The position numbers and the translations under genes were made by a program. Under the pieces are notes generated by a model. The model was not told the DNA's origin. It ran no database searches and worked only from the letters and a program-made list of their open reading frames with translations. A stretch of DNA of 52,856 bases from an uncultured bacterium (lineage in GTDB: Bacteria > Bacillota_I > Bacilli_A > RFN20 > CAG-826), in assembly GCA_949299335.1 (NCBI GenBank), contig CASGAD010000014.1:130330-183185 (forward strand), read 5' to 3'. Of this stretch, positions 3,972 to 48,925 are shown piece by piece. Position 1 is the stretch's first letter, and every line of letters begins with the position of its first letter.

Positions 3972-4901
3972 ATGATTACCATAAAAGTTACAAAAGAGAC
4001 TTTAGATCAAATCGAAAAGGAATATTATGATAATATAACTGAGCGAAATGTTGGTTATATTCTTTTTGCTATCAAGACTGATGAAAACATCATAACAGCA
4101 TACGACAACAAAAAGAAAACTCAATTTAAAGTAACTATTCAAGGTGATAATGCCATAGAACTTGCTAAAAAATATAGCTACTGCCCTGAAGCACTCCCAA
4201 AAAAGCAAAAAAACGAAAAAGATAATCTTTTATTTTTAGATGTTGATCAACAAATTGGTAGCGATGAAGTTGGAACAGGTGATTTTTTTGGACCTATTGT
4301 TGTTTGTGCAGCCTATGTTGACCACGACACAATGAAAATTATTTATGAATATGGCATTTCAGATTCAAAAACATTCTCAGATGCTAAAATCAAAGAAATT
4401 GTACCTTTAATTCTTAAAAAAGTTCATTTTGTGTGCAAAATTTTAACTCCTGAAAAATATAATAGTCTTCAAGAAAAAGGCTGTAATATGAATAAAATTA
4501 AAGCTATCATGCATAATTATGTATTATTAAAACTTCATGCTAGATGCCCTTATGTTAAAAATGTTTATATGGATCAATTTACCCCTGGAGATAAATATTA
4601 CGAGTATTTGCATGGTGCAGTGCCTATTGTTTTAAAAAATATTATTTTTAGGGAAAAAGGTGAGGTTCATTTCCCTAGCGTAGCTTTAGCAAGTTGTATT
4701 GCTAGATATACATTCTTACAAGAAATTGACTTCATTAATAAAAAATATAATGTCAAATTACCTCATGGAGCTGGTAATAATGTAAATGAATTCGCTAAAA
4801 AGTTTATCGCTAAGTTTGGCATAGATGAATTTAATAAAATTACGAAAAAAAACTTCAAGAATTATCTTGAAGTTACTACCGAAAAGGTTTCTTTAATTTA
4901 A
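3972..4901 (+). CDS. rnhC: Ribonuclease HIII
   Basis: RNase HIII cleaves the RNA strand of RNA:DNA hybrids in the cytoplasm. The N-terminal domain of about 80 residues (starting MITIKVTKETLDQIEKEYY) matches the TBP-like substrate-binding domain typical of RNase HIII. The catalytic core begins with GSDEVGTGDFFGP, the DEXG motif of type 2 RNases H, followed by GISDSK and the later MDQF acidic residue. The motif VHFPSVALASCIARY is also typical. The length of 309 aa is normal. The start codon is immediately preceded by a TATAAT box, so the gene appears leaderless. Its 3' end overlaps the convergent pseudouridine synthase gene by 9 bases. Confidence 0.95.
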   Translation: MITIKVTKETLDQIEKEYYDNITERNVGYILFAIKTDENIITAYDNKKKTQFKVTIQGDNAIELAKKYSYCPEALPKKQKNEKDNLLFLDVDQQIGSDEVGTGDFFGPIVVCAAYVDHDTMKIIYEYGISDSKTFSDAKIKEIVPLILKKVHFVCKILTPEKYNSLQEKGCNMNKIKAIMHNYVLLKLHARCPYVKNVYMDQFTPGDKYYEYLHGAVPIVLKNIIFREKGEVHFPSVALASCIARYTFLQEIDFINKKYNVKLPHGAGNNVNEFAKKFIAKFGIDEFNKITKKNFKNYLEVTTEKVSLI

Positions 4902-5801
4902 GTTATTAATTATTTCTTGAAAGTATGGAGGGATTTCTGAAGTTAATGAAATCTCTTTTTTTAATATAGGATGATAGAAAGTTAATTTATAAGCATGTAA
5001 TAATTGTCCATTATCATAAATATACGTAGAACCACCATAAAGTTTATCACCTACTAAAGGATGACCAATCGAAGTAAGATGAACTCTAATTTGATGAGTT
5101 CTGCCTGTTTCTAGCTTACATTCGATTAAAGTGTATTTAGAAAATCTTTTTAAAACTTTAAAATGGGTGATTGCTTCTTTGCCAGTTTGATTATTAATAG
5201 CCATTTTTAATCTATTTGAAGGATCTCGCCCAATTTTACCTACAATTTTACCATCATTACAATTAATGCATCCATCTACTAAAGCAATATATTCTCTATG
5301 CATAGAATGATCTTTTAATTGCTTAGCAATTTCATTATGAACAAAATCATTTTTGCAAATTAATAATAACCCACTTGTGTCCTTATCTATTCTATGAACT
5401 ATTCCAACTCGATTAATTCCATTAACTTTTGAAAGTTCTTTTTGGTTATAGATTAAAGCATTAACTAAAGTGTCTTCATGATGTCCATCTCCTGGATGAA
5501 CAACTAATCCTCTTGGTTTATTAATAACAAGTATATCATCATCTTCATAAACTATATCTAAAGCTAATTCATAAGGCTTTAAATCTAAATTAGAATCTTT
5601 TTCTTTATAGCTTACTTCTATAACATCATTATTTTTAACTTTATAAGATGGAGAAACCTTAATGCCATTAACTAAGACTTCTCCTTCTTTAATTAAATTT
5701 GAATAATAAACTCTAGAATAATTAGAATCAAAAAGAGTTAAGGCTTTATCAAGCCTTAACGTCTCTATTTTTTCATCAACAACAAATTTATTTTTCATCA
5801 T
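4893..5801 (-). CDS. rluD: RluD-family 23S rRNA pseudouridine synthase
   Basis: This enzyme isomerises uridine to pseudouridine, most likely in large-subunit rRNA. Residues 1-75 form an S4-like RNA-binding domain (KALTLFDSNYSRVYYSNLI...). The RluA/RluD catalytic motif HRIDKDTSGLLLICKN carries the catalytic Asp. The downstream conserved segment LETGRTHQIRVHLTSIGHP is typical of the family. At 302 aa the length is normal. The gene overlaps lspA by 14 bases, and in Bacillus the equivalent gene ylyB also follows lspA. M1 and M2 (5801/5798) are both possible starts. The exact rRNA target cannot be read from sequence. Confidence 0.92.
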   Translation of the reverse strand: MMKNKFVVDEKIETLRLDKALTLFDSNYSRVYYSNLIKEGEVLVNGIKVSPSYKVKNNDVIEVSYKEKDSNLDLKPYELALDIVYEDDDILVINKPRGLVVHPGDGHHEDTLVNALIYNQKELSKVNGINRVGIVHRIDKDTSGLLLICKNDFVHNEIAKQLKDHSMHREYIALVDGCINCNDGKIVGKIGRDPSNRLKMAINNQTGKEAITHFKVLKRFSKYTLIECKLETGRTHQIRVHLTSIGHPLVGDKLYGGSTYIYDNGQLLHAYKLTFYHPILKKEISLTSEIPPYFQEIINNLN

Positions 5802-6453
5802 TTTTAAGTTCGTTATCTGGGTTTTCTATTTTTTCAGTGTTCGTTTTAGTGTCGATTACATCATTACTATTTGAATTTTTAATAATTTTCTCGTTTTCTA
5901 ACTTTTGTCTTTTTTGTTCTTTTACTTCATCAACAATGAAATAAATTATAAGTAGGAATAAACCAACAACTAAACAAGAATCTGCGATATTAAAGATTCC
6001 AAAATTAGGGAACCAAGATTGAATAGAAATAAAATCAATAACTCCTCTATTAAAGAAAAATGTGCGATCAATTAAGTTTCCAAAGTTTCCACCATATATT
6101 AGGGCAAGTGAAACACCAAATAAAGAGTCTATCTTTTTATTTTTAGCCATTAAATATACAATGTATCCACTAATAAATAAAAATACTATCCAAGAGATAG
6201 AGACAAGTATGATTCTAGACCATATTTCATCTCCTCCCATACCCCGTGCTGCACCAGTATTATAAACAAGCACAAATTCAATAAAATGAGGTATAAATGT
6301 TACAGTACCTTTACCAGCCAATAAAGCCTCTGCAATATATTTACTAGCTTGGTCAAAAGCTACAGAGAAAACAAAAATTAAAGCAAAATAAATTAAAAAA
6401 ACTAAATAATCTTTAATTTTTATTTTTTTAATGCATTCAAGCATCTTGTGCAT
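5788..6453 (-). CDS. lspA: Lipoprotein signal peptidase (signal peptidase II)
   Basis: LspA cleaves prolipoprotein signal peptides after lipid attachment at the lipobox Cys, in the membrane. Four membrane segments are visible. The conserved blocks are the NTGAARGM segment, GNLIDRTFFFNRGVIDFI and FNIADSCLVVG, which include the two catalytic Asp residues. The protein is 221 aa, longer than the usual 150-170, because of a hydrophilic N-terminus and a C-terminal tail of about 45 residues rich in Asn, Lys and Glu. The start at 6453 is supported by AAGGAG 7 bases upstream, encoded inside the ileS zinc-finger codons. The enzyme has many clients here: at least six lipobox proteins lie in this window. 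Confidence 0.94.
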   Translation of the reverse strand: MHKMLECIKKIKIKDYLVFLIYFALIFVFSVAFDQASKYIAEALLAGKGTVTFIPHFIEFVLVYNTGAARGMGGDEIWSRIILVSISWIVFLFISGYIVYLMAKNKKIDSLFGVSLALIYGGNFGNLIDRTFFFNRGVIDFISIQSWFPNFGIFNIADSCLVVGLFLLIIYFIVDEVKEQKRQKLENEKIIKNSNSNDVIDTKTNTEKIENPDNELKNDEK

Positions 6454-9167
6454 AAATGTACTCCTTCAATTTCATGGATTTCATTTTCATCAAAATAGTT
6501 CCAGCATCTTTCACATTTAACGCCACTATGTTTTCTAACATCAAATGAACCAATATCTGAACTATTTGTTGTCACAGAATCATCAAATTTTACATCGCTA
6601 ACAATGAATATTCTTTCAAGTTCTTGATGTGAAAAGTTTTTAAGTTCTTCTTTTATCTTTTCATCCTTAATATTCATCAAAACAGCTGCTTCTTGAGAAC
6701 TACCAATTAATCCACTAGTTCTAGCGATTTCTAATGAACCTAAAACTTTTTCTCTTAATGTTTTGATTAATTTATATCTTTCTAAATAACTTGAATCATA
6801 ATTATGACTAACTTTTGGGTATTCATAATACATCACATTATCTTTAGTTGCTAATGGATAATTTTTATTAACTTCATCCATAGTAAATGGAATAATTGGA
6901 TTTAATAATCTCATTAAAATAAATGTAAGTTCATTTAAAACGGTTTGAACTTGTAATCTACGTTTAGAGGTTTTTTCTTCACAATAAAGGATATCTTTTG
7001 CAATATCTAAATAGAAACTAGAAAGGTCATCACTCATGAATTTCATGATTTCGCTTGTCGCATTTATAAAGTTATAATCGTCTAAATTTGCAATAACTTT
7101 ATTTTTTACTTCTTCTAATCTAGCCAATATAAATTTATCAATTTCTTCTAATTCTACTTGAATATCTTCTTTTACAAAATGATCTTCTAAAGTGCCATTT
7201 GATAAGTTTCCAAGCAAGAATCTAAAGGTATTTCTTATCTTTCTATATTGATCACTAATAGTTTTAATAATTGATTCGCTAATTCTTACATCTTGTTGAT
7301 AATTAGTTAATGCGGCCCATAATCTTAATACATCACTACCATAGACATTAATAATCTTTAATGGATCTAAACCGTTTCCTTTTGATTTAGACATCTTTTC
7401 CCATTTTTCATCAACAACAAAGCCATGACTTGTAACTTCTTTATAAGGAGCTTCTCCAGTAGTTGCTAAAGAAACAATTAATGAAGAATTAAACCAACCT
7501 CTATATTGATCACTACCTTCTAAATATAAGTCAGCAGGATATTTTAAACCTCTTTCTCTTAAAACACCATTCCAGCTAGAACCACTATCAAACCAAACAT
7601 CCATGATATCTTTTTCTTTTTTAAAGATACCATTTGGTGAATGTTCATTAGTATAACCCTCTGGTAAAAGGTCTTTTTCATCTAATTTATACCAAATATT
7701 TGAACCATTCTTTCTTACTAATTCAATAATATGATCAAATACTTTCTCATCGATAATTGGAGTTCCGTCTTCGCAATAGATAATTGGAATTGGTACACCC
7801 CAAGCTCTTTGACGTGAAATACACCAATCAACACGATCTTTAATCATGTTAACCATTCTTGTTTCACCCCAACTTGGATTCCATTTTATATTATGGATTG
7901 CTTTAATTAAGTCTTCTCTAATTGGATCGATTGAGCAGAACCATTGTTGAGTAGCTCTAAAAATAACTGGTTTATGTGTTCTCCAATCGTGAGGATAACT
8001 ATGGACAATATCTTCTTCTTTTAATAAATGTCCATTTTCTTCTAAGATTTTTAAAACTTCTGTATTTGCATCTTCATAGAATAATCCTGCGAGTCTTGGA
8101 CCACAGTCTTCCATCATTTTTCCATGTTCATCAACAGGACAATATGGTTTAATTCCATATTTTAAACAAACTAAATAGTCATCTGTACCATGTCCTGGGG
8201 CAATATGGACAAGTCCAGTACCAGTTTCTCCAGTAACATAATCTCCATTAATAACAACTGAATCTCTATCATAGAATGGGTGATTACAATCTATTCCATC
8301 CAATTCTTTGCCTTTAAATTCTTTTAATAATTCTAATTTAGTTAAGCCTAATAATTCTTTTAAAGCACTGCTTAAATCGACTAAAAAGACTAATTTACCT
8401 AAATTTGTGTCAAATAAGCCATATGTAAACTCTGGGTTAGCACAAATTGCTAAGTTTGCAGGTAAAGTCCAAGGAGTTGTTGTCCAAATAATAAATTTTG
8501 CACCGTTTGGAACAACATTTTTACCATCTTTTACATCAAAAGAGACATAAATGGTATAAGCTTTAACATCTTGATATTCAATTTCTGCTTCAGCTAAAGC
8601 ACTTTCACTACTTGGTGACCAATAAACAGGCTTTAATCCTTTATATATATAGCCTTTTAAAGCCATTTCTTTAAAGCATTCTAATTCTCTTGCTTCAAAT
8701 TCAGGTAATAAAGTTAAATAAGGATGATCGTAATCGCCTAAGCAACCAAGACGTTTAATATCAGCTTTTTGTTTTTCTACTTGAGTAAAGGCGTATTCTT
8801 TACATTTTTCTCTAAATTCAAAAATTGGAGTAGTTTTACGATTAACTCCACTTTTAGTAACCATATTTTCAATTGGTAAACCATGAGTATCCCACCCAAA
8901 AATGAATGGTGTCTTATATCCACTCATATTTTTATATCTAACAACAAAATCTTTTAAAACTCTATTTAACATATGCCCGCAATGCATTGCACCATTAGCA
9001 TATGGTGGGCCATCATGTAACATAAATTCAAGGTCTTTCCCTTCATTCATTTTTTGATAAACATGATCTTTTTGCCATTTATCTACAAGTAATGGTTCTT
9101 TTTGTGCTAAATTTCCTCTCATCTCAAAAGATGTTTTTGGCATTAATAGCGATTGCTTAACTTCCAT
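6420..9167 (-). CDS. ileS: Isoleucyl-tRNA synthetase
   Basis: A class I aminoacyl-tRNA synthetase that charges tRNA-Ile. The HIGH-type motif is in PPYANGAMHCGHMLNRV, the large CP1 editing domain follows, and KMSKSKGNGLDP is the KMSKS loop. The C-terminus holds a zinc finger (CERCWNYF ... CTRCLNAL) as in bacterial IleS. I take the ATG at 9167 (915 aa), because GGAGGA lies just upstream and the N-terminus (MEVKQSLLMPKTSFEMRG) then matches the family. Reading further upstream would enter the T-box leader. It overlaps lspA by 34 bases, so ileS-lspA-rluD is one operon, as in Bacillus with fewer genes between. Confidence 0.97.
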   Translation of the reverse strand: MEVKQSLLMPKTSFEMRGNLAQKEPLLVDKWQKDHVYQKMNEGKDLEFMLHDGPPYANGAMHCGHMLNRVLKDFVVRYKNMSGYKTPFIFGWDTHGLPIENMVTKSGVNRKTTPIFEFREKCKEYAFTQVEKQKADIKRLGCLGDYDHPYLTLLPEFEARELECFKEMALKGYIYKGLKPVYWSPSSESALAEAEIEYQDVKAYTIYVSFDVKDGKNVVPNGAKFIIWTTTPWTLPANLAICANPEFTYGLFDTNLGKLVFLVDLSSALKELLGLTKLELLKEFKGKELDGIDCNHPFYDRDSVVINGDYVTGETGTGLVHIAPGHGTDDYLVCLKYGIKPYCPVDEHGKMMEDCGPRLAGLFYEDANTEVLKILEENGHLLKEEDIVHSYPHDWRTHKPVIFRATQQWFCSIDPIREDLIKAIHNIKWNPSWGETRMVNMIKDRVDWCISRQRAWGVPIPIIYCEDGTPIIDEKVFDHIIELVRKNGSNIWYKLDEKDLLPEGYTNEHSPNGIFKKEKDIMDVWFDSGSSWNGVLRERGLKYPADLYLEGSDQYRGWFNSSLIVSLATTGEAPYKEVTSHGFVVDEKWEKMSKSKGNGLDPLKIINVYGSDVLRLWAALTNYQQDVRISESIIKTISDQYRKIRNTFRFLLGNLSNGTLEDHFVKEDIQVELEEIDKFILARLEEVKNKVIANLDDYNFINATSEIMKFMSDDLSSFYLDIAKDILYCEEKTSKRRLQVQTVLNELTFILMRLLNPIIPFTMDEVNKNYPLATKDNVMYYEYPKVSHNYDSSYLERYKLIKTLREKVLGSLEIARTSGLIGSSQEAAVLMNIKDEKIKEELKNFSHQELERIFIVSDVKFDDSVTTNSSDIGSFDVRKHSGVKCERCWNYFDENEIHEIEGVHLCTRCLNALKK

Positions 9168-9177
9168 ATTTTCCTCC

Positions 9178-9374
9178 AAATTTAACTGATAAATAAAAAA
9201 ATCCCTAGAAAACTCTAAGGACGCTTTCACGTGGTACCACCTTAGTTACTAGTAAAACTAGTCACTCAATACTCATTTAAAAATATAGAAAGTGATACCC
9301 TAAAGTTGAATATTATTGCCTCGCACCATACGCAACTCGCTTGAAGTTCTACTCTTTAAGACGTGTCTTTCAAT
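9178..9374 (-). promoter_or_regulatory. T-box riboswitch, isoleucine (ileS leader)
   Basis: The minus strand carries the T-box AAGGTGGTACCACG (about 9230-9243). An intrinsic terminator follows: TCCTTAGA pairs with TCTAGGGA, then a run of seven T. The likely specifier in the stem I bulge is ATC (9294-9296) followed by A, in GGGTATCACT, matching isoleucine. An AGTAG loop-E-like element sits near the 5' end. Uncharged tRNA-Ile would favour the antiterminator and switch ileS-lspA-rluD on. Confidence 0.93.
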
Positions 9375-9380
9375 GCAAAT

Positions 9381-9409
9381 ATATTAAAATAATAAAAATT
9401 TTAAATCAA
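9381..9409 (-). promoter_or_regulatory. Promoter of the ileS operon
   Basis: TTGATT (9404-9409) is separated by 17 bases from TAATAT (9381-9386) on the minus strand. This would start transcription near 9374, just before the T-box leader. The same pair of hexamers with the same spacing precedes the tRNA-Arg gene. Confidence 0.7.
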
Positions 9410-9456
9410 GCATTACAATTTTTAACGTTTAAATATAAATATTTAACCTATGATAA

Positions 9457-10632
9457 TTAAAACTTTCCATCTAAAAAGTCTGGAATAATACTATCATCAT
9501 CTAAAGGATTCTTTTCCTTTTCTTTGTCTAAGTTTGTATTGCTAAATAAGTCTCCTTGAATTGAGCCTTTGTTAGTTTCGAATGCAGCTCTATTTCCTTT
9601 ATTAAATGCATTAGAAAATAAGCCAAAATCATTTGCTTGTTGACTTGTTCCGGATTGTTTAGGAATACCAAAAGTAATATCGTTAGTGAAATTACTTGCA
9701 ATAATACTTAACATAATTTGGTCAGTTAATTGATCATTAATTGAAATACCGAACTTTAAGTCTAATTGTCCCCCACTTTGTTCAATAATCTTTTGAACAG
9801 TTTCTTGACATTCATAAAGACTGACTTTTGGCCCACAAGTAATATGACAAATGGCTCTTCTAGCACCTTGTACGCTTTGTTCGATCAAAGGGCAATTTAA
9901 AGCAGTCATTGCTGCATCATCTGTTCTAGAATCACCTTGACCCATACCAAAACCTATTAAAGCAACTCCACTATCTTTTAAAGTATTTTTAACATCAGCA
10001 AAGTCTAAATTAATAACAGCTGGCATTAAAATTAAATCCGTAATAGTTCTAACACTTTGTGCTAAAACTTTATCTGCTTCACTAAAAGCTTCTCCAATTG
10101 GTAAATTGCCTGAATTCATCAAAAGTTTATCGTTACTTACAACAATTAAACTATCTACATTAGCTTTTAAATCATTTAATCCATCGATAGAATATGTTGT
10201 TCTTTTATTTCCTTCAAAACTGAATGGTCTAGTAACAATCGCTATTGTTAAGCAGCCTTCATCTTTAGCAAACTTTGCGATGACTGGAGCCGCACCTGTA
10301 CCAGTACCTCCACCCATACCAGCAGCAATAAAGACCATGTTAGCGCCTTTAACGATTTCTCTAATTTCTTTTTCACTTGCTTCAGCAGCTTCTTTACCGA
10401 CTTTTGGTTCGCCACCAGCGCCAAGTCCATTAGTAATGGACTCGCCTAAAATTAATCTATTAGGAGCTTTAGATAAAGAAAGTGCTTGTTTGTCTGTATT
10501 TGCGACGAAAAATTCAACATGTTGAATTTCTTCATCAATCATACGATTTACTGCGTTATTTCCAGCTCCACCAACACCAATTACAACTATTCTTGCAACC
10601 GGTTCAAAGCTATCTAATTCATCACCAAACAT
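9457..10632 (-). CDS. ftsZ: Cell division GTPase FtsZ
   Basis: The tubulin homologue that forms the cytokinetic ring. The nucleotide-binding domain has VGVGGAGNNAVNRM and the tubulin signature GGGTGTGAAP. The T7-loop region and the C-terminal domain (GQLDLKFGISINDQL) follow. After a Gln/Asn-rich linker the last residues (DDDSIIPDFLDGKF) form the conserved C-terminal peptide that binds partners such as FtsA. The length of 391 aa is normal. It follows ftsA by 11 bases with an AGGAG site before the ATG, so the two are co-transcribed. Confidence 0.97.
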   Translation of the reverse strand: MFGDELDSFEPVARIVVIGVGGAGNNAVNRMIDEEIQHVEFFVANTDKQALSLSKAPNRLILGESITNGLGAGGEPKVGKEAAEASEKEIREIVKGANMVFIAAGMGGGTGTGAAPVIAKFAKDEGCLTIAIVTRPFSFEGNKRTTYSIDGLNDLKANVDSLIVVSNDKLLMNSGNLPIGEAFSEADKVLAQSVRTITDLILMPAVINLDFADVKNTLKDSGVALIGFGMGQGDSRTDDAAMTALNCPLIEQSVQGARRAICHITCGPKVSLYECQETVQKIIEQSGGQLDLKFGISINDQLTDQIMLSIIASNFTNDITFGIPKQSGTSQQANDFGLFSNAFNKGNRAAFETNKGSIQGDLFSNTNLDKEKEKNPLDDDSIIPDFLDGKF

Positions 10633-10643
10633 ATTTCTAGCTC

Positions 10644-11912
10644 CTATAATTCATCTCTTAATTCGTTATATTTTTCTTTTGCTCTTTCTTTTTGAGGATC
10701 AGAATCGCTAATTCTATTTAATTCCGAAACATGATTCTTATTTTCATCCTCTAAAGCACCACGATATGTACTTGAAAGATATATAGCACCAAGACATCCA
10801 ATAAATTCGCTGCTTCTACAGCCAACTGTTGGGATAGTTAATATTTCAAGTGGATTAGAGTTATACATCTTTAAGACATATTCTTTTAATCCATTTAATC
10901 TACTTCCTTCACCAACAAACACTAAAGGAATTTCAGAAGCTAGACTTTCATATTGATCTAATATTGTTTTAAAGCATCCATTAAAGAAATTAATCCAATT
11001 CTTTAAAAAGATTAAAGTTGAATTACTGATATCTTCTTTGTTATATCTTCTTCTAACCCCATCATTACCGACTGAATCAATAATTGGTGGATTATATTCG
11101 GTCTTTCTTAAATCAAGGCCATAGATATTTTTAATTTCGGTTGCTTTTTCTCTAGTGATTTGAAAATCGTTCATGTATTTTTCAATCAAGTCATCAATAC
11201 CGATCGAGAAGAAATTGCTAGCATAGACTGTATTTCTACCAACAAACGACAAAGTTGTTGTCTTATTTGAAAAATCAACAAGTAAATATGTTGGATATTT
11301 AAAGTTATTTCCAGCTAGCAAATTGCTAATGCCAATAGGCGAAATAACTTCTCTACGTACTCTTAATCCTGCTCTTTCACAGACAGTTTTCATATCTGTA
11401 ACCATCTTTTTAGGCAAAGTATAAACATTTGCATCGATTGTAATGTTTTGAGATACTTCGTTTAAAGGTGGAACAGTATATTGTTTATTGTCATCAAGAA
11501 TAAACCTATTAGGAACAATATCGACTAGTATATTGTTTAAATTAGGTAATTTTTCTTTCTTAACTAACGCTAAAGCATTAGATATATCGATTCGATCGAT
11601 TTTTGAAATATTTGATACTGTGTTTGTTGTTTTTACTGTTTTATAAACTTCTAACCCGTATGAAGGCAATACAAGTACAATTTCGTTTACAGTGATTGTT
11701 AATTTGTGATTTGAAGCTGTAACTTCAATATTATTAATCTTACTTAAATCGTCACTTAATGATCCTAAATCAAAGATATCTCCATCTTTAAATGGAACAC
11801 TTAATTGGTGTTTCACTTTATAAAGAATATCTACTTTATTATCCAAAACGTACCCGATAACTAATTCATAATAGCGATTAGATATTTCTAGTGCTGCAAT
11901 CTGTTTTCCCAT
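10644..11912 (-). CDS. ftsA: Cell division protein FtsA (divergent)
   Basis: An actin-fold ATPase that tethers FtsZ to the membrane and recruits the divisome. The assignment rests on position directly before ftsZ and on the actin-like layout: an N-terminal AALEISNRYYELVIGY block, a 1C-like subdomain near residues 90-165, a phosphate-2-like loop (LLVDFSNKTTTLSFVG), and a late GEGSRLNGLKEYV block resembling the adenosine motif. It is more divergent than ftsZ. The C-terminal helix (ERAKEKYNELRDEL) is highly charged, and I see no clear amphipathic membrane-targeting helix. The ATG lies 7 bases after a TATAAT box, so the transcript appears leaderless. Confidence 0.87.
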   Translation of the reverse strand: MGKQIAALEISNRYYELVIGYVLDNKVDILYKVKHQLSVPFKDGDIFDLGSLSDDLSKINNIEVTASNHKLTITVNEIVLVLPSYGLEVYKTVKTTNTVSNISKIDRIDISNALALVKKEKLPNLNNILVDIVPNRFILDDNKQYTVPPLNEVSQNITIDANVYTLPKKMVTDMKTVCERAGLRVRREVISPIGISNLLAGNNFKYPTYLLVDFSNKTTTLSFVGRNTVYASNFFSIGIDDLIEKYMNDFQITREKATEIKNIYGLDLRKTEYNPPIIDSVGNDGVRRRYNKEDISNSTLIFLKNWINFFNGCFKTILDQYESLASEIPLVFVGEGSRLNGLKEYVLKMYNSNPLEILTIPTVGCRSSEFIGCLGAIYLSSTYRGALEDENKNHVSELNRISDSDPQKERAKEKYNELRDEL

Positions 11913-11948
11913 ATAAATTATTATATGCTAGTTTTGTAAAAACTACAA
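11910..11948 (-). promoter_or_regulatory. Promoter of ftsA-ftsZ, leaderless
   Basis: TTGTAG (11943-11948), a 17-base spacer, then TATAAT (11920-11925) on the minus strand. The box ends 7 bases before the ftsA ATG at 11912. There is no Shine-Dalgarno site. Confidence 0.65.
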
Positions 11949-11992
11949 TCAAAAGAAAAGTCTATAATTAGTAGTAAACTAGTAATTAATTA

Positions 11993-12038
11993 GTAAAAAA
12001 TTAGTAGAAACAAAATTTCTCGTTGCTTCTACTAATTT
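11993..12038 (-). terminator. Intrinsic terminator after the mraZ-rsmH operon
   Basis: A perfect 12-base stem (AAATTAGTAGAA at 11998-12009 against TTCTACTAATTT at 12027-12038), followed in the minus direction by a T run. It lies between the 73-codon gene and the ftsA promoter, so mraZ-rsmH-orf73 and ftsAZ are separate transcription units. Confidence 0.8.
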
Positions 12039-12057
12039 TCCTATAGGGAGGAATATA

Positions 12058-38345: not shown

Positions 38346-41300
38346 TTAAATATTTAATGAATTTTTAAGCATATTATTCTCATAATAGGTTTCACTTACT
38401 ACATAAAATACATAGTTTTTACTTAATGAAAGGTCTTTTGCGAATTCAACGCTAGAAATAATCGTACTTTGTGAATCTGAATTTGTTGTACATTTAGCGA
38501 CGCCCAAGACTCTTTCGGAAACAGAATCAACTAAATAGTATGCACTATAGCCATTACTATCAACAGGATCTTTATATTCGCTATCTGTTGAATTAGAATT
38601 AAGTCGTTTCTCAACATAATATTTAAATATATATTCCAAATTTTGTGGATTTGTTACTTCAGTACTATTTGTAGGAGTATATAGATCATTTGTCGTATCA
38701 ATTGAATTTCCAGCATAATATTCACAGGTAAAATACTCTCCTTCACTATGGTTTAAAAACCCGTAGTTATCTTCGGTTCCTACCTCATACGTGTTAGGCT
38801 TTTGATCAAAGACTTTTACAAATATATTTTTAAATCTATAACAATAAACATTGAACTTTTGAGTCGATGAATCAAATTCAAATATAAAACTATAGTATCC
38901 TTTAGCATTATCCTTATCATTAAGCGGCTTCAATTTTAAGATGTTATATTTGATTTGATTACCGTTTTCATCTTTTTCAGCAGTTTCAGTCTCACATAAG
39001 TCAACAAAATCATCAGCATTAGTAAAAATTATTTCATCATCGGACAAAACTTTATTATCTGTAATTGTTTCAGTATTTGAAACTGAAATTAATCCTTTTT
39101 TACCACCTGAGTTATCATCACCCAAAGGACTAATATTAAAGCCCATTTGATTATTCATTTTTCCATTTGCAGTAATAGCAAATGTTAATGTATTAGAGAA
39201 TCTAAAATCAACTCCATCAATTCTATAAATATATGGATTATTTTCAGAAATATATGAAACATTATTTATAACATTTTGATTACTAGAATTAGTAGAAATC
39301 GTACCAGTATATAGATTATCAGTATTCATTGCTAAGCCTCTAGAATTAGAAACTTCATTAGCAACATATTCATTAATTGGATTATTTGTATCTTCTGTAT
39401 AAATCGTATTTCCCTCATCATCAGTAGATTCTACTATACTTATATCTTGAACTAAACGTAAATCAGCTACCTTTTCATAAAGAATAGTATATACACCGTA
39501 AACATAATTACCACCAATTACATATGTTCCTAGATTGTAAAGTTGTTTCCCTTCTAAATCTTTTATTGGAAAGTCATCACCAGTTTTTAATTTATTAGTA
39601 AGTTGGTTATCTTCTTTAGCATAAAGAGCATCTTTTAAATCATTAAGAGCATCCCGTTGATAAGTATAATAATATTGATTATTACTAATATTAATGTCTC
39701 TTTGACATGTTACAGCATAAATATTATATAACTGATTTTTTGATAGAAGATCTATTATCTTAGTTGTCCCTTTTGTATCTAACGTGATATCCTCGCCAAG
39801 CGCTCCTGAGTCATTTGAGTTGCCGTTTCTAAAATCTAACCAGTCTTTACCTTTATGAGTAATTCCACCATTAGTTTCTGTTACTTGAATCCAAGTATTA
39901 TCCCTAATTTTTGTACCTCTTAATTCAATAGCTTTTGTATTTTCACTAAAAGAAAAATTATTAATAGAAGCGTAATTAAGAGTCAAACTATTACCATCAA
40001 CGGTACATTTATAATTGGTTTTTCCTTTAAAAGAAAAGAATCTTGTCTCCATTGAAAGAGTCTCATCATTGTTTTCACTTGCATAAACATTAAAATAATC
40101 GAGTCTTATACCATCGCGATATCCTTCTTCAGGCTTTTTGTCAGAAGTATTTTGGACCGCATTATAATTTTTGCCGTTAGAAAATGTAGGAAATAATCTA
40201 ATAACATATCTACCAGTAGTCTTGTCCAATTCAGCGTATTGCTTTAAATTCGACATAAAATCAAACAAATTATCTTGATCCTTATATTCAAATCCATCGA
40301 TAGGCAAAAAATCTTTATAATTTTCTCTTTGGTTTGATGTTACACTAATCCAACCAGAAAATTTAGATGTAAACCAACCATTTGAATCTCCCATATCAGT
40401 TTTAGGATCTCCAATATATGTATTAATTAAATTATAATCGATGTAACTATCAAAACTTAACTTGATTGGTAAATACCTACCATCAGCAACATCTAATTGT
40501 GGCCAGTAGCCAAGCCTATCATCTATTTCTAATACCTGATAAAACGGATCCGGAATTTCAAGTTTACTATACTTTTCATATATATTTTTAGATGTTAGTA
40601 GGTTTCCAACTCGATTTCCGTTCTCATCTACCTCAGGCAAATTTTTATTATCTTTTTGTACGACACTTACATCACTAAAATCATCCTCATCATTTTGCTT
40701 ATTTCCTAATCCACCATCTATTCGATCATTTTCAGAGCCTTCATAATTAACATTTATGACTCTTTTTTTCTTTGTTTGCGAACCCCCAACCAATGTAAAA
40801 TAAATATCTGTTTTAGCATCTGCCAATTGAATATAACTGGAATAATTAGCTTTATTACCATTTGAATCGTTATTGTAATCAATAGATAAATATGTTCCTT
40901 TAGTTTCTCTATAAGTAGTTGACCCTCCTCTATAATCTTCATCAGTATCATTTTCAAATTTATCTAAATCACTAAAAGCATATTCATTAGTTAAACCGTT
41001 GATATCTATGTGATATTGATTACCTGCTTGAATACCATTTGTAGCACTTGCGTCGCCTTCAACTTTGACAATTTTTTTAGTCTCATTGTTGTATTCAAGA
41101 TATCCATAGATATTTTCTGGTTTATCAGTTGGCACTGCAACCTTCCCATTTACATCTTTTTCGCTATTAGCATATCTATATAAATAATAAGTAGAAGGGA
41201 AGAAATAAATATCATACTTATCTGTTATTGATTCTTTACCAAAAGTATAATTCTCATAAATATTATCTATATTACTTTCAGAATTGATTTCTTTATTAAA

Positions 41301-41402
41301 ACCTTGAGCATAGACCCAATAAGAAACACCTGCTCCTACACCAATAACAACAAAAGCTACTAATGAAAGTATTACATATTTAATTTTTCTAAAAATAAAC
41401 AT
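38346..41402 (-). CDS. Large exported protein with SipW-type signal motif
   Basis: A 1018-residue protein. The N-terminal membrane segment (residues 8-33) carries GAGVSYWVYA, the same G-x-G-x3-W-x-aromatic pattern as in the other exported proteins of this operon. This is the place where SipW-type peptidases cut their clients. The rest is extracellular-type: rich in Asn, Tyr, Asp and Ser, poor in Cys, with many short beta strands and no recognised domain. GGGAGGGG precedes the ATG. It is the last gene of the operon. It is probably a structural surface or matrix component; this is inference. Confidence 0.72.
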   Translation of the reverse strand: MFIFRKIKYVILSLVAFVVIGVGAGVSYWVYAQGFNKEINSESNIDNIYENYTFGKESITDKYDIYFFPSTYYLYRYANSEKDVNGKVAVPTDKPENIYGYLEYNNETKKIVKVEGDASATNGIQAGNQYHIDINGLTNEYAFSDLDKFENDTDEDYRGGSTTYRETKGTYLSIDYNNDSNGNKANYSSYIQLADAKTDIYFTLVGGSQTKKKRVINVNYEGSENDRIDGGLGNKQNDEDDFSDVSVVQKDNKNLPEVDENGNRVGNLLTSKNIYEKYSKLEIPDPFYQVLEIDDRLGYWPQLDVADGRYLPIKLSFDSYIDYNLINTYIGDPKTDMGDSNGWFTSKFSGWISVTSNQRENYKDFLPIDGFEYKDQDNLFDFMSNLKQYAELDKTTGRYVIRLFPTFSNGKNYNAVQNTSDKKPEEGYRDGIRLDYFNVYASENNDETLSMETRFFSFKGKTNYKCTVDGNSLTLNYASINNFSFSENTKAIELRGTKIRDNTWIQVTETNGGITHKGKDWLDFRNGNSNDSGALGEDITLDTKGTTKIIDLLSKNQLYNIYAVTCQRDINISNNQYYYTYQRDALNDLKDALYAKEDNQLTNKLKTGDDFPIKDLEGKQLYNLGTYVIGGNYVYGVYTILYEKVADLRLVQDISIVESTDDEGNTIYTEDTNNPINEYVANEVSNSRGLAMNTDNLYTGTISTNSSNQNVINNVSYISENNPYIYRIDGVDFRFSNTLTFAITANGKMNNQMGFNISPLGDDNSGGKKGLISVSNTETITDNKVLSDDEIIFTNADDFVDLCETETAEKDENGNQIKYNILKLKPLNDKDNAKGYYSFIFEFDSSTQKFNVYCYRFKNIFVKVFDQKPNTYEVGTEDNYGFLNHSEGEYFTCEYYAGNSIDTTNDLYTPTNSTEVTNPQNLEYIFKYYVEKRLNSNSTDSEYKDPVDSNGYSAYYLVDSVSERVLGVAKCTTNSDSQSTIISSVEFAKDLSLSKNYVFYVVSETYYENNMLKNSLNI

Positions 41403-41421
41403 ATTACCCCTCCCATCAATC

Positions 41422-42381
41422 TTAATCTACATAAGTAGTTACAAAATCAAAATTTATTTTCCATAAAGAGCTATCATTTGTGATTGCTTCTTTAATTTCT
41501 TTTAGTTTTGCACTAGTATTTGGTTTTTTACCAGGTTTATAAGAAAACATATCTTGCAAATCAAGCTCAAAATTAAAAACTTTGCAATTGCTAAAATCTT
41601 CAATATAATCACTAAAAACAACTTCATTGGATGTTGTAGTTGTTGTATTATCTGAAGTCGAATCATCAGAAGATGTATCTTCTTGTTTTGGAGTAGCATC
41701 CTCAAATTTAAAAAAACTATCTGTAAGATCCAAAAAATTTACATAACTTCCATTATGATAAATTGAAAATGTTGGATTATTAGAATTATCTGGATTATAT
41801 TTTTCATCAAGTTCTAAGTAATCAGAAATTGCCATTCCGTTACCAACAGAAGGCATTGTAACTCTAAGGCCTATTTTAAATTTCATTCCACTTTTTATAA
41901 TAGCTTCATATTGATCAGATGGTACAAAAGCGTATCCACCTCTAACCTCATTTTCTCTAATATATGTTCGTATATCTAAATCTTTATCTCTTTTAAAACG
42001 ATAAAAAGTTAAACCATCCTTTAAACTATTAGAATCTTCATTTCCTTCAGTAAAAACAATTTTACGAGTTGTATACATTTTTATAAGATTGTCAATCTTA
42101 ACACCATCATTAGTTTGTAGACTATCCCACTTATCTTCTGTTGCATCTCCAAGTTTATTATTTTCTTTATAATCTTCTTTCACTTCTTGCTGGGCTTCAA
42201 GATTACCAATAAGCCTTAATTTGCCAACATCAGCTAGTGCACTTACCTCTATTTTAGCTTCAGTAGATAAGCTAGTTTCCCACCCAGCACCAAAAACCCA
42301 CATACAAAAACCACTACCAATAATAGTGCTCATTCCACAAATAGCAACTAAACCTGTTATTAATCTATTGAGTAATGGCAT
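41422..42381 (-). CDS. TasA-like exported protein B with SipW-type signal motif
   Basis: A 319-residue protein. The signal segment has IIGSGFCMWVFG followed by STEAKIEVSAL, matching the sister protein at 43430-44179 in layout. The mature part is acidic, with a Ser/Thr/Asp-rich low-complexity stretch (about residues 238-256) before a final beta-rich segment. The ATG overlaps the signal peptidase stop by one base (TAATG), so translation is coupled. I see no enzyme motif. A fibre subunit role follows from its pairing with a SipW-type peptidase. Confidence 0.75.
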   Translation of the reverse strand: MPLLNRLITGLVAICGMSTIIGSGFCMWVFGAGWETSLSTEAKIEVSALADVGKLRLIGNLEAQQEVKEDYKENNKLGDATEDKWDSLQTNDGVKIDNLIKMYTTRKIVFTEGNEDSNSLKDGLTFYRFKRDKDLDIRTYIRENEVRGGYAFVPSDQYEAIIKSGMKFKIGLRVTMPSVGNGMAISDYLELDEKYNPDNSNNPTFSIYHNGSYVNFLDLTDSFFKFEDATPKQEDTSSDDSTSDNTTTTTSNEVVFSDYIEDFSNCKVFNFELDLQDMFSYKPGKKPNTSAKLKEIKEAITNDSSLWKINFDFVTTYVD

Positions 42382-43388
42382 TACTTCACCTCACTAGTAA
42401 CAAAACCAAGTTTCTTATCTAACTCATGAGAAATAAGTAATATACGTTTATAATAGTTCGTCTCAATCTTGTCTTCAGTTACATTATATGTAATTAAGAA
42501 GATCAAAGCTGCTGCCATAGCAACAATACCAATTGTTGATTGTAAATATGTTAATGTAACACCTAGTCCATAATTTTGGAAACCACTATATTTACCAACA
42601 ATTTCATCTAAAGTTATGGTTAACTCAAAAGATAATGACTCACTATTTGCATCACCTCTAAAGGTATAATAAGTTATACCTGTTTGAGGATTAGTATATT
42701 TTCTAATTATTCTATGAACATAAATTGTATCATCATGTTCATATGCAGCTATATCATAAAGATTCAACTCGTCATCACTAGTAACTTTATTTAACGTAAT
42801 AATAGAATATTGTTCTATTTGGTCATTCAAGTTATTACTTGTAATATAAGTATTGGACTCATTAACAGTTTCCATAGAACCTGTTTTAATAGTTAATAAA
42901 GTTGTGTTTCCAAAATAAAAAGTCTCCCCCATTAACTTATATGAAACTGATACTATTATCATCACACCAAGAACAAAATAAAAAACCCCAAATATAATAT
43001 TTAATAATATTTGATACTTTTTATTTTTTTCTTTACTTCCAACAATTGTATCGTAAATTGTAACTGGTTTTGAATCAATTTTTAACGAATCATTAGCAGG
43101 ATCTCTTTCTAAAACATGAGTTTCTACTGTTTCAGTTTTTTGGAAGAGGCGATATTTAAACGCCTCTTCCTCAACTACTTCATGTTTTAATTGGCCTTCA
43201 ATGATTTTACGATATTTTCTTCTAATATCTTTTTCTACTAGTGGGTCTTCATGTCCATTTTTAATATTTGCTATTTTGTATCTCCCATAGAGTAAAAATA
43301 GAATACTAAAAGTTATGGCCATACCTATAATAACAAGCATGGACACAACAAAAGCAATGGATTGTAATTTTTCTTGACCGGCTAGCAT
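42381..43388 (-). CDS. SipW-like (ER-type) signal peptidase I with unusual N-terminal extension
   Basis: An S26 family signal peptidase of 335 aa. The catalytic Ser lies in KTGSMETV (Ser 171). The ER/SipW-type His lies in IYVHRIIRKY (His 225), replacing the Lys of ordinary bacterial enzymes. The conserved Asp lies in RGDANSES (Asp 246). A C-terminal helix lies at about 280-301. Unusually, an extra membrane helix (about 12-35) and a charged cytoplasmic segment of about 95 residues precede the normal N-terminal helix (about 128-150). SipW of Bacillus has no such extension. It sits among three genes with matching signal motifs, so it most likely processes them. Confidence 0.88.
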   Translation of the reverse strand: MLAGQEKLQSIAFVVSMLVIIGMAITFSILFLLYGRYKIANIKNGHEDPLVEKDIRRKYRKIIEGQLKHEVVEEEAFKYRLFQKTETVETHVLERDPANDSLKIDSKPVTIYDTIVGSKEKNKKYQILLNIIFGVFYFVLGVMIIVSVSYKLMGETFYFGNTTLLTIKTGSMETVNESNTYITSNNLNDQIEQYSIITLNKVTSDDELNLYDIAAYEHDDTIYVHRIIRKYTNPQTGITYYTFRGDANSESLSFELTITLDEIVGKYSGFQNYGLGVTLTYLQSTIGIVAMAAALIFLITYNVTEDKIETNYYKRILLISHELDKKLGFVTSEVK

Positions 43389-43429
43389 AAATCTCTATGT
43401 TTTGTTAAATACTTAATTGACCTTATAAA

Positions 43430-44179
43430 CTAACTATTAGGAACAATTTTTACTTGAACATCAAATTTAATTCCACAATTAGGATCAGCGCTAATCTCTC
43501 TTTCCATAGTATCATAAACATCTTTACTGGTTGGCTTTTTATTATCTTTAAATTTAAGCATTTTGTTAGTAAACTCAGTTGTAGAAACATCGAAATTCCA
43601 GTTATTATTTTCTTCTACACTATTCAAAGTACATTCAATTTTATTGCTGTTACCACTAGCGAATTGAAATTGACCTATAGAAGTTGAAAAAGCTGAATCT
43701 GGCATCGCTGGTCCTTCCGCAGCAGCTGTCTTATTGAATTCTATGTAATCAGCAACTTTGCCTACAATTTCAACACTAAAAGCAACAGAAACAGTGTAAT
43801 CAGCACCTATAAAAGAATCATAATCCTCAATATCATATGTGAATCCTATCTTACCTAAGTCGCTCTTGCTACTTGTTTCAATAAAAGATATGCCTTTAGT
43901 AACGTCACTTGCATTTGCAACAGTTCCTTGATCTAATTGAAGTTCTATGACTGTCATTGGCGTTGTGAACGTAAAACTTTGTTTATCCTCTGAAGCACCA
44001 ACAGTATAATACGCTGATAATTCTCCAAACTCAGCTCCATCTGTTATAGAAACACCAATTTTACCAGATTGAGCAGAACCAGTTAATGTTCCAAAATACC
44101 AAGCAGAGAAACCTGATCCAACGACTGTTGCGGCAGCAACTACAGGAAGTACGGCTGCCAAAATTTTTCTTTTTAACAT
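43430..44179 (-). CDS. TasA-like exported protein A with SipW-type signal motif
   Basis: A 249-residue protein. A basic start (MLKRK) and a hydrophobic stretch lead to VVGSGFSAWYFG, followed by SGKIGVSITDGAEFG. This is the typical start of SipW-dependent matrix proteins (TasA/camelysin group), which have GG-x-W-A-x-F at this spot. The mature part is beta-rich, with few Cys and many Asp, Ser and Thr. AGGGGA precedes the ATG. First gene of the operon, and so probably the most expressed; likely the major fibre subunit (inference). Confidence 0.78.
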   Translation of the reverse strand: MLKRKILAAVLPVVAAATVVGSGFSAWYFGTLTGSAQSGKIGVSITDGAEFGELSAYYTVGASEDKQSFTFTTPMTVIELQLDQGTVANASDVTKGISFIETSSKSDLGKIGFTYDIEDYDSFIGADYTVSVAFSVEIVGKVADYIEFNKTAAAEGPAMPDSAFSTSIGQFQFASGNSNKIECTLNSVEENNNWNFDVSTTEFTNKMLKFKDNKKPTSKDVYDTMEREISADPNCGIKFDVQVKIVPNS

Positions 44180-45087: not shown

Positions 45088-46866
45088 TTAGTTATTGTAG
45101 GTACTCCATTCACCTGCATATACTTTGTTATTAATAACAGTATTATTTAAGATATAGAAATTATTCTCTTTACCGACAAAATCACTAAATTTAAGATCTT
45201 GAGTTTGACCAACTATATTATCTGACCAGCCAATTGAGAATATGATTGTGTCATATAAACTTGGATCGACACCTTCTATTTTCCAAATAGTTGTATTAGT
45301 AGCTTCATCATATGAAACTTTTGTCATCGCTTCACCAGGCCAAGAAGCACTATTACTACCATCATTTGAATTAAACATGTAAGCAAAAGCTCCTGGTCCC
45401 CATTCTTCTAATTCAGAAATAGTTTTAAAGTAAAGAGTGTACTTTTCAACTGTTCCTTCTTTAAAAGTAACTTCAATTTCATAAGTTTCGCCTTTAACAG
45501 TATCAATAGTTCTAGTAGTTGAGTCAACTACTTCTCCATTAATCTTAATAGTATCGACTACATAGCCTTCATTAGGAGTGATTGTAAAGCTAATAGTTGA
45601 ATCAGCAAAAGCTAAACCATTTAATTTAACTTCACCTTTAGTATCATCATAAGTAAAGTTAACTTCGCATAAATCTCTAGTTATATCTGTTAATTCGATT
45701 TTACTCCAAGTGACTTGAGCATAGTTACCATCTCCACTCCATTTAGCTTCATCAGAAAGAGTTGCGAAATTATTTTCCTTACTTATAGCTAAAATATCAG
45801 TTCTAGCACCCCAATCAGTTGTTCCATCACTAGAAGTACGAATAAATTGCACATAATATACTTCATTTAAGTCAACTTCATAACTCCAATAGTTACATTC
45901 TTGATAATAACCTGGGTTATCAAGATAATTCATGCTTTCACCTAAATAATTAGTAGTGTCTATTGCAGTAGTAATTATATTTTTCTCTTCATCGTATAAA
46001 ATGATACTAGTTGAAGCACCGCTATCATTCCACCATTTACTATCTTTAAAGTAAATTGTTTTCTTATTTTCTTCAGGAACTATAGACTTTTTAAATAAAA
46101 CAGTGACTTTATTTTCGCCTTTAACAAGATTAAATTTCTTACTATCAGTAATATCTACATCATTATGTTTAAGCCATTCTAATTCATATCCTTCATCAGG
46201 AGTTACAGTGATAATAACTTCATCACCAACATTACCACTAGTTTTACTAGCACTAATAGTACCATGTTCAGCTTGTGTTAAAGTGACTGTACCAGTTTCA
46301 ACAGGAACTTGCACAACTTTAAAAGCTACTGTGACTTTATTTTCACCTTTAACTAGATTAAATTTTTTAGTTGATGTGATATCGATATTATTATGTTTTA
46401 AATAGTCTAATTCATAACCGCTATCAGGTGTAACTGTTATAGTGATTTCATCACCAACATTACCACTAGTTTTACTAGCACTAATAGTACCATGTTCACC
46501 TTGAACCAATGTAACTGTTCCAGTTTCAACAGGTGTACTAACTTCTTTAAAAGTGACTTCTACAGTGTTTGTGCCTTCCTTAGGCTTAAATTCTCTAGTA
46601 GTATTTTCTACACTAGTACCATTAATTTTAATTGTATCTACTTCGTAATTTTCTTTAGGGGTAATCGTTAAAGTTACTTTATCTCCAACACTCCCGCTAG
46701 TTTCGCTAGCCGTAACTGTACCTTTTGTACTATCAAAATTTAATGTTACAGTAAACTTTGTTTCAGTTGTTTGATCAGTACTATCACCACAACTTGACAA
46801 AGTTGTACCAACTAATGTACCAAAAAATACTAAGCTACTAACTAGAAATATTTTTCCTTTTTTCAT
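45088..46866 (-). CDS. Starch-binding lipoprotein with InlB-like repeats and CBM26-type modules
   Basis: A 592-residue lipoprotein (TTLSSC, Cys 26). Three tandem beta-repeats of about 76 residues follow (residues about 34-270, each with GTISASKTSGNVGDEI-type and GYELDYLK-type blocks), as in divergent InlB B-repeats. A first carbohydrate-binding-like module has YFKDSKWWNDSGA and RTSSDGTTDWGARTDI. A fourth repeat and a C-terminal CBM26-like module (about 470-592) follow, with SWPGEAMTKVSYDE and GWSDNIVGQTQDLKF. CBM26 binds starch. Repeats 2 and 3 are nearly identical at DNA level. AAAGGAAA precedes the ATG. It is probably a surface starch receptor serving the pullulanase upstream. Confidence 0.85.
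   Translation of the reverse strand: MKKGKIFLVSSLVFFGTLVGTTLSSCGDSTDQTTETKFTVTLNFDSTKGTVTASETSGSVGDKVTLTITPKENYEVDTIKINGTSVENTTREFKPKEGTNTVEVTFKEVSTPVETGTVTLVQGEHGTISASKTSGNVGDEITITVTPDSGYELDYLKHNNIDITSTKKFNLVKGENKVTVAFKVVQVPVETGTVTLTQAEHGTISASKTSGNVGDEVIITVTPDEGYELEWLKHNDVDITDSKKFNLVKGENKVTVLFKKSIVPEENKKTIYFKDSKWWNDSGASTSIILYDEEKNIITTAIDTTNYLGESMNYLDNPGYYQECNYWSYEVDLNEVYYVQFIRTSSDGTTDWGARTDILAISKENNFATLSDEAKWSGDGNYAQVTWSKIELTDITRDLCEVNFTYDDTKGEVKLNGLAFADSTISFTITPNEGYVVDTIKINGEVVDSTTRTIDTVKGETYEIEVTFKEGTVEKYTLYFKTISELEEWGPGAFAYMFNSNDGSNSASWPGEAMTKVSYDEATNTTIWKIEGVDPSLYDTIIFSIGWSDNIVGQTQDLKFSDFVGKENNFYILNNTVINNKVYAGEWSTYNN
46219..46498 (-). repeat. 228-bp tandem repeat within the starch-binding lipoprotein gene
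   Basis: A 52-base block is identical at 46219-46270 and 46447-46498, offset by exactly 228 bases (76 codons). Flanking sequence is similar but diverged. This marks a fairly recent in-frame duplication of one InlB-like repeat. Confidence 0.85.
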
Positions 46867-47731: not shown

Positions 47732-48925
47732 TTAAGCCTCGTAAGCACTCCAAGTGACAGAGTCTTTGTCAACCTTGGAGTCGCTATTTAATCTAGCAAT
47801 AATTGAGGCATCTTTGCCATAAGTTGTAGGAACTTTAATATCTGCGGTTTGATAAGTTGCACTACTTCCATTAACTTTAGCAAAAATACAATTCATATAT
47901 AACGATGTATCAAATTCAATGCTATAAAGAGTATCACTAACTTTAGTCATAGCCTCTCCTGGCCAACTTGTTTTTGGATTTTCACCCCAAATATAGCAAT
48001 AAACTTCTCCACTAATCGCATCCCACCAATCTTTAGTTTCAAAATATAAAGTATATATTCCATTATCTTCAATTACTGGGTCGTTAGTAGGATCATATTT
48101 TCCAACTGTTGCTTCAGCGAATATATGAGGTTCAGTATCACCATACCAGCTTTCTACATCAGTTAAAATATACATATCGTTTGGTGCTTCAGGGACATCT
48201 AAAATATCGGTTTTAGCTCCCCAGAATGAAGTACAATTTCCATCAGTTCTAATAAATTGGATACTTTCAGCATTATCACCATCGATATCAATATAGAAAT
48301 AATTAAATCCTCCAACAGCGTTATAACTCATGTGAGTCATTTGATCACCTAAAGTGTCATTTTCACTAATTACTTCACCATTTTCATTATAACTAATGAC
48401 ACCTACTCCAGCTTCACCTTGATTCCACCAACTTGCATCTTTAAAGTAAATTCTTAAAGGATTTTCATAAGTTGGTTTATCTTCTCCTGGAACAGGGATA
48501 GGATCTAATTCATCGCTTAACTCTCCATCTGGAAGTATTTCTTCATTTGATGGTCCAATAATATCACTATCACTAGTAATTACTTCTTCATAATACATTG
48601 TAATAGTAAAAGTATTTTCACCTTCTTTTAAAGTAAATGGATATCTATATTTAGTAGTTTCGTCTTCATATAATTTAAATAAGTCGTTTTGAACAACATC
48701 CATTACTCTATAGTTTTTATTTTCTGGAGTAATAGTTAAATATCCTTCATCACCAACTTTTCCAGATTGAATTGATGATGTGACTGTTGCGTGTTCGGTA
48801 GGCAAAATTTTAACTGTACCGGTTTTTTCTTCGTCATTAGGATTTTTTGTTTGATTCGAGCAAGCACTAATCGCTAAAGTTAATAAACTAGCACTAAAAG
48901 CAAAAGCTAATAATCTTTTTTTCAT
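47732..48925 (-). CDS. Starch-binding lipoprotein, paralogue of the 592-residue protein
   Basis: A 397-residue lipoprotein (LAISAC, Cys 22). It has one InlB-like repeat (about 35-110), an acidic Pro-rich linker, then two carbohydrate-binding-like modules. The first has IYFKDASWWNQGEAGVGV and RTDGNCTSFWGAKTDI. The second is CBM26-like, with KTSWPGEAMTKVSDTLYSI. Both correspond block by block to the larger paralogue at 45088-46866. It follows the pullulanase gene by 14 bases, so it shares the operon. GGTGATAG before the ATG is a moderate ribosome site. Likely role: surface starch capture. Confidence 0.85.
   Translation of the reverse strand: MKKRLLAFAFSASLLTLAISACSNQTKNPNDEEKTGTVKILPTEHATVTSSIQSGKVGDEGYLTITPENKNYRVMDVVQNDLFKLYEDETTKYRYPFTLKEGENTFTITMYYEEVITSDSDIIGPSNEEILPDGELSDELDPIPVPGEDKPTYENPLRIYFKDASWWNQGEAGVGVISYNENGEVISENDTLGDQMTHMSYNAVGGFNYFYIDIDGDNAESIQFIRTDGNCTSFWGAKTDILDVPEAPNDMYILTDVESWYGDTEPHIFAEATVGKYDPTNDPVIEDNGIYTLYFETKDWWDAISGEVYCYIWGENPKTSWPGEAMTKVSDTLYSIEFDTSLYMNCIFAKVNGSSATYQTADIKVPTTYGKDASIIARLNSDSKVDKDSVTWSAYEA

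Follow-up and report, generated by a model that had tools for sequence, protein, structure and literature searches.

What do an ER-type signal peptidase and three exported proteins of very different length, encoded side by side in an uncultured bacterium, do together? The question is raised by four ORFs on the minus strand, packed in the transcribed order A-P-B-C within positions 38346-44179 of the window, by which we mean the whole 52,856-nt stretch of DNA analysed here. We examined the gene calls, the peptidase, the predicted cut sites of its clients, the recurrence and variation of the locus in relatives and the cell envelope of the host.

Gene arrangement

The ORF calls place client A at 43430..44179 (249 aa), peptidase P at 42381..43388 (335 aa), client B at 41422..42381 (319 aa) and client C at 38346..41402 (1018 aa), all on the minus strand, with A, B and C exported. 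They confirm the four tightly packed genes of the original prediction, a SipW-like peptidase with clients of 249, 319 and 1018 aa. A gap of 41 bp separates A from P, P and B overlap by 1 bp and 19 bp lie between B and C; with such tight spacing, a single operon A-P-B-C is likely. Elsewhere in the window, lipoproteins with InlB-type repeats and a starch-binding module are encoded at 45088-46866 and 47732-48925 (CBM26 match of 7e-10 in the latter), adjoined by a 1025-aa lipoprotein that by eye resembles a starch-debranching enzyme.

The peptidase and its predicted cut sites

In an alignment of 18 sequences (P and 17 relatives), Ser171 (codon 42876..42878, in KTGSM), His225 (42714..42716, in VHR) and Asp246 (42651..42653, in RGDAN; all minus strand) are invariant, giving a catalytic Ser-His(-Asp) set and not Ser-Lys. 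The P profile matches the SEC11 subunits in PDB at 4e-6. Judged by these invariant residues and this match, P is an ER-type (SipW/SEC11-type) signal peptidase I. P itself matches the SipW model NF046067 at 6e-8 and TIGR02228 at 2e-5, both under the curated cut-offs, so that the SipW equivalog cut-off is not reached; both models are matched by 17 of the 18 family members. The earlier description of P as a SipW-like, ER-type enzyme is thus borne out. P carries an additional N-terminal transmembrane segment and a linker ahead of the catalytic domain. Some relatives of P have very long C-terminal extensions (L073:7983-10337, L149, L142 and L147; 628-897 aa in total), and in L073 the domain is apparently duplicated.

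The signal regions of all three clients contain the shared SipW-type motif that had been proposed: GSGFSAWYF in A (44093..44119, minus strand; predicted cut after Ser25), GSGFCMWVF in B (42292..42318, minus strand; after Cys26) and GAGVSYWVY in C (41310..41336, minus strand; after Ser27). Searched as a DNA pattern, the strict motif has three matches in the 1.42-Mb genome, one in each of the three clients, and the reversed control has none. We then compared 58 clients, comprising A, B and C types and the clients of two other SipW-type loci of the genome, in a motif-anchored alignment. Assuming a cut between Ser and Ala of G-F-S-A-W-Y-F, all 58 have Gly or Ala at P3, Ser, Ala, Cys or Gly at P1 and Trp or Phe at P2′, and the common pattern is [GA]-[FYLV]-[SACG]-x-[WF]-x-F, with the predicted cut after the third position. 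Small P3 and P1 residues, an aromatic P2′ and a gene beside a sipW-type peptidase are the marks of a SipW client, and the clients show all of them. TasA, a SipW substrate that is resistant to LepB, carries Phe at P2′, and an aromatic P2′ generally hinders LepB (PMC10269814); the client sites therefore suit SipW-type and not LepB-type peptidases. P very probably cuts A, B and C.

Had the motif been common in unrelated exported proteins, this would have refuted the original reading. Across 38 loci and 493 ORFs, however, all matches to the signal profile but one fall in client genes of SipW-type loci, the sole exception being a 114-aa ORF in L140; P was not called in three of the SipW-type loci that hold such matches (L143, L144 and L156). 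The other single-helix exported proteins of the window with a recognisable cleavage signal have lipoboxes. A motif scan of viral contigs matched 15 stretches, with no relatives among them.

Other SipW-type loci of the genome

The genome carries two further SipW-type loci, L054 and L055, whose clients bear a looser form of the motif, so that A-P-B-C is not alone in having this class of signal. L054 (G000:C17:30000-48000, positions 4496-9452) encodes five tandem clients of 226-275 aa followed by a 358-aa peptidase, and downstream of the peptidase lie genes for an AAA-type ATPase-like protein and for ABC transporters. L055 (G000:C14:232000-250000, positions 7843-12047) encodes a 312-aa peptidase and a single client of 1021 aa, which shows a weak InlB-like repeat, and adjoins the gene of a 1022-aa lipoprotein with Big_2 domains; a starch-binding module considered for the 1021-aa client was not confirmed by Pfam, and the idea was let go. 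In relatives, the number of clients in loci of the array type ranges from one to six, with seven in L160; loci of the large-client type have clients of 803-1043 aa, except that L167 has two, of 623 and 334 aa.

The 51 peptidases placed in a tree fall into three groups that correspond to the three locus types, with supports of 93/85 for the quartet clade, 100/99 for the array clade and 100/100 for the single-large-client clade. Additional loci for this tree were picked by match features of their peptidases, so that selection accounts in part for the clades, though not for their agreement with client content.

Client proteins

We aligned orthologue sets of 17 (A), 16 (B) and 18 (C) sequences. 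Over their mature parts A and B are paralogues by profile comparison (hhalign, probability 97.7%, E 1e-11), while the homology of C to A and B is limited to the signal region. None of the three has a match in Pfam, NCBIfam or PDB by sequence or profile search, which for C upholds the original statement that it lacks a recognised domain and places it in an undescribed family.

Compared by hhalign with a single TasA sequence, checked against 8AUR, mature A and B score within the range of shuffled TasA. They show no TasA/camelysin (Pfam M73) mature-domain match, and we rejected their membership of that family on sequence; a TasA-like C was likewise dropped, as mature C matches neither A nor B. 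AlphaFold models built on four-row alignments are unusable, with a pLDDT of 33 for A and 32 for C. The relation to TasA thus rests on peptidase, signal and operon logic and not on fold. A weak PDB match of B to a superantigen fold (E 0.05) and the PDB profile matches of A (E 0.25 or worse) were treated as chance.

Recurrence and variation among relatives

Relatives of A occur in 22/146 and relatives of C in 12/146 genomes of the family. In most loci read from family f1, A, B, C and P are found together, in the orders A-P-B-C, A-C-P-B and B-C-P-A; the four are conserved as a unit across genera despite shuffled gene order. Among the 279 genomes of the order, profiles find SipW-type peptidases in 149 and C relatives in 50, the latter spanning 12/56 genera and four families. 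C relatives adjoin P in every locus read in which P was called, and the loci of other genera and families combine C and P with one or more small clients of the A/B type, in varying number. Outside the order C is rare (4/26 matching genomes in a class sample, with one strong match).

Between the window and its relative L071, identity is 92% for P, 88% for B, 57% for C and 71-81% for flanking genes, and for A it drops to 37% (signal 87%, mature part 30%). Between L056 and L062, P is 96% identical and the flanking genes are 93-99% identical on one side and 75-88% on the other; the signals are 90-100% identical and the mature parts 56% (A), 57% (B) and 41% (C). In these two closest informative pairs, signals of 87-93% identity stand against mature A parts of 30-56%. 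In a third pair, L059 and L061, A (81%) shows no excess variation over P (85%), and hypervariability of A is therefore not universal. C is best conserved over its first ~75 residues (68-100% identity per 25-column block), ahead of a variable body, and residues 46-63 hold four of its seven invariant columns. We read the steep divergence of the mature parts, in which recombination and point change are pooled, as that of exposed, diversifying bodies behind a constant export signal.

B of the window (41422-42381) differs from its closest relative (L071:2917-3885) mainly in the first ~45 residues, that is, in the signal and the new N-terminus, the reverse of the pattern in A and a hint at segment exchange. 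Variation of A by recombination with silent copies was considered and found unsupported, the genome holding one A match.

Cell envelope of the host

The draft genome is 98% complete in 37 contigs. No MurG, no penicillin-binding transpeptidase and no PF04203 sortase match was found in it, and control families were detected; the sortase result also speaks against a sortase-assembled pilus, whose mark is a pilin sortase gene. A TIGR02227 match, indicating a LepB-type peptidase, is likewise missing from the genome, and all type I peptidases found in it are SipW-type. Transpeptidases occur in just 30/279 genomes of the order. Genomes of the genus give either no LepB-family match or a weak one (1e-4 to 1e-6), which may stem from the SipW-type genes, and family f2 mostly lacks such matches; in many other f1 genera they are clear, alongside SipW-type loci. 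Given the lack of MurG, transpeptidase, sortase and LepB matches, which in a draft of 37 contigs falls short of proof, the host is probably wall-less and equipped with signal peptidase I of the ER type only. Its envelope pattern resembles that of the peptidoglycan-deficient, sortase-less families of RFN20, an order in which a survey took the lack of sortases to indicate lowered expression of surface proteins (PMC10868615).

Discussion

We consider, with a probability of about 60%, that the locus is a dedicated SipW-type export operon whose products A, B and C most likely form a sortase-independent heteropolymer on an apparently peptidoglycan-free cell. P would cleave A, B and C at the common cut-site pattern and so remove their signal peptides, and the freed proteins would co-assemble outside the membrane without a sortase. 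In such a polymer, A would be the main, fast-evolving chain subunit, B its less variable paralogous partner in the chain and C a large, non-homologous end subunit with a variable exposed body. The conserved N-terminal segment of C is a candidate strand for docking into the A/B polymer, in the position that TapA or CapP would hold in Bacillus. The sequences show the likely operon, the peptidase class, the common cut-site pattern, the conservation of the quartet, the paralogy of A and B and the variability pattern; from there we infer cleavage, polymerisation, the roles of A, B and C and a surface function, with fibre formation suggested by the type of operon.

The polymer is favoured because the SipW clients TasA, BsaA and CalY are filament formers (PMC9674648, PMC7395162, PMC13082335), and because of the cut sites kept in 58/58 clients, the confinement of the motif, the retention of the quartet, the three matching clades, the constant signals and the lack of sortase. 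Against it we count that mature A and B are unlike TasA in sequence and have no database match, that the L059/L061 pair shows no excess variation of A and that C shares homology with A and B in the signal only.

Its main rival is a variable, non-fibrous coat, in which A, B and C, cut or partly uncut, would remain at the bare membrane and, as monomers or as a sheet, shield it from phage or host. The probable absence of peptidoglycan and the steep divergence of the mature parts behind constant signals fit such a coat, and the only evident membrane anchor is the signal helix, which would need to remain; the cut site kept in all 58 clients points instead to release, and characterised SipW clients polymerise (PMC9674648, PMC7395162), which leaves the coat unlikely in our view. 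We are similarly sceptical of a fibre made of A and B only, with C an independent secreted protein (adhesin, binding protein or enzyme) that uses the same peptidase. Although the body of C is unrelated to A and B and very variable, C is found with A-type clients and P in nearly all Q-type loci read, despite rearrangement, and the N-terminal segment is its best-kept part, which suggests a conserved partner.

It is also conceivable that P is the housekeeping signal peptidase of a genome without a TIGR02227 match, in which the type I peptidases found are all SipW-type, that its linkage to A, B and C is merely convenient and that the clients are unrelated secreted proteins. We regard this as improbable, since the three peptidase clades each follow one client type, the signal class is confined to client loci and a clear LepB is kept beside SipW-type loci in many other f1 genera. 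A bolder version of the heteropolymer, which we put forward as a speculation, holds that a wall-less genus lost LepB and leaves all signal cleavage outside lipoproteins to three ER-type peptidase/client systems inherited together; the quartet would then build a hypervariable heteropolymeric pilus of a new class on the bare membrane, and C would nucleate it or serve as its tip adhesin.

The locus has parallels among known systems. In TasA fibres the N-terminal strand of each subunit completes the next, and TapA may give the first strand (PMC9674648). As in tapA-sipW-tasA of Bacillus subtilis, an ER-type peptidase here adjoins exported clients with small P3 and P1 and aromatic P2′ residues, and the pairing of a chain-forming client with a non-identical helper is paralleled by the proposed roles. 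Unlike SipW of B. subtilis, P has 335 aa with the extra N-terminal transmembrane segment and linker (the NF046067 model has 189 positions); the locus has three clients, one of them 1018 aa long, mature A and B are unlike TasA in sequence, and no match to MurG, transpeptidase or LepB was found in the host genome.

In Clostridium perfringens, sipW-bsaABCRSD encodes BsaA and the putative secreted proteins BsaB, BsaC and BsaD; BsaA polymerises, and pellicles are weaker in bsaB and bsaC mutants (PMC7395162). It shares with the quartet the arrangement of SipW with several exported proteins in one operon. The BsaA polymers are sortase-independent (PMC7395162), and a sortase-free polymer would be expected here from the genes. 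Unlike the clostridial operon, the quartet has no two-component genes, and A, B and C match no NCBIfam model. The closest organisational parallel to A/B/C is TasA/CalY/CapP of Bacillus cereus, where TasA and CalY co-polymerise with the help of CapP and all three are described as SipW-processed (PMC13082335): two paralogous filament subunits and the non-homologous helper CapP resemble the split between A, B and C. CapP is described as chaperone-like with a disordered C-domain, whereas C is fast-evolving and 670-1020 aa long in relatives; the quartet probably forms a single operon, unlike sipW-tasA/calY/capP. Given BsaA-D (PMC7395162) and TasA/CalY/CapP (PMC13082335), the original count of one or two small clients for known TasA/SipW loci is inaccurate, and three clients are not unusual in themselves, three-client SipW operons being already known.

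The export logic is a known one; to it the locus adds undescribed client families, including one of ~1000 residues, and an unexpected setting that is apparently wall-less and LepB-less. Among the top-ranked papers of the literature searched, we found none that joins SipW with wall-less Bacilli. Hardly anything is known about surface structures in uncultured, reduced Bacilli that lack a wall. In such genomes as many as three dedicated loci of ER-type peptidase and variable clients have been kept, and one of these genomes shows no LepB. A fast-changing protein fibre or coat on the cell surface is the most likely product of the quartet, which offers a testable model of polymer display by a wall-less cell and may be an example from nature of bacteria that export proteins with eukaryote-type signal peptidases only.
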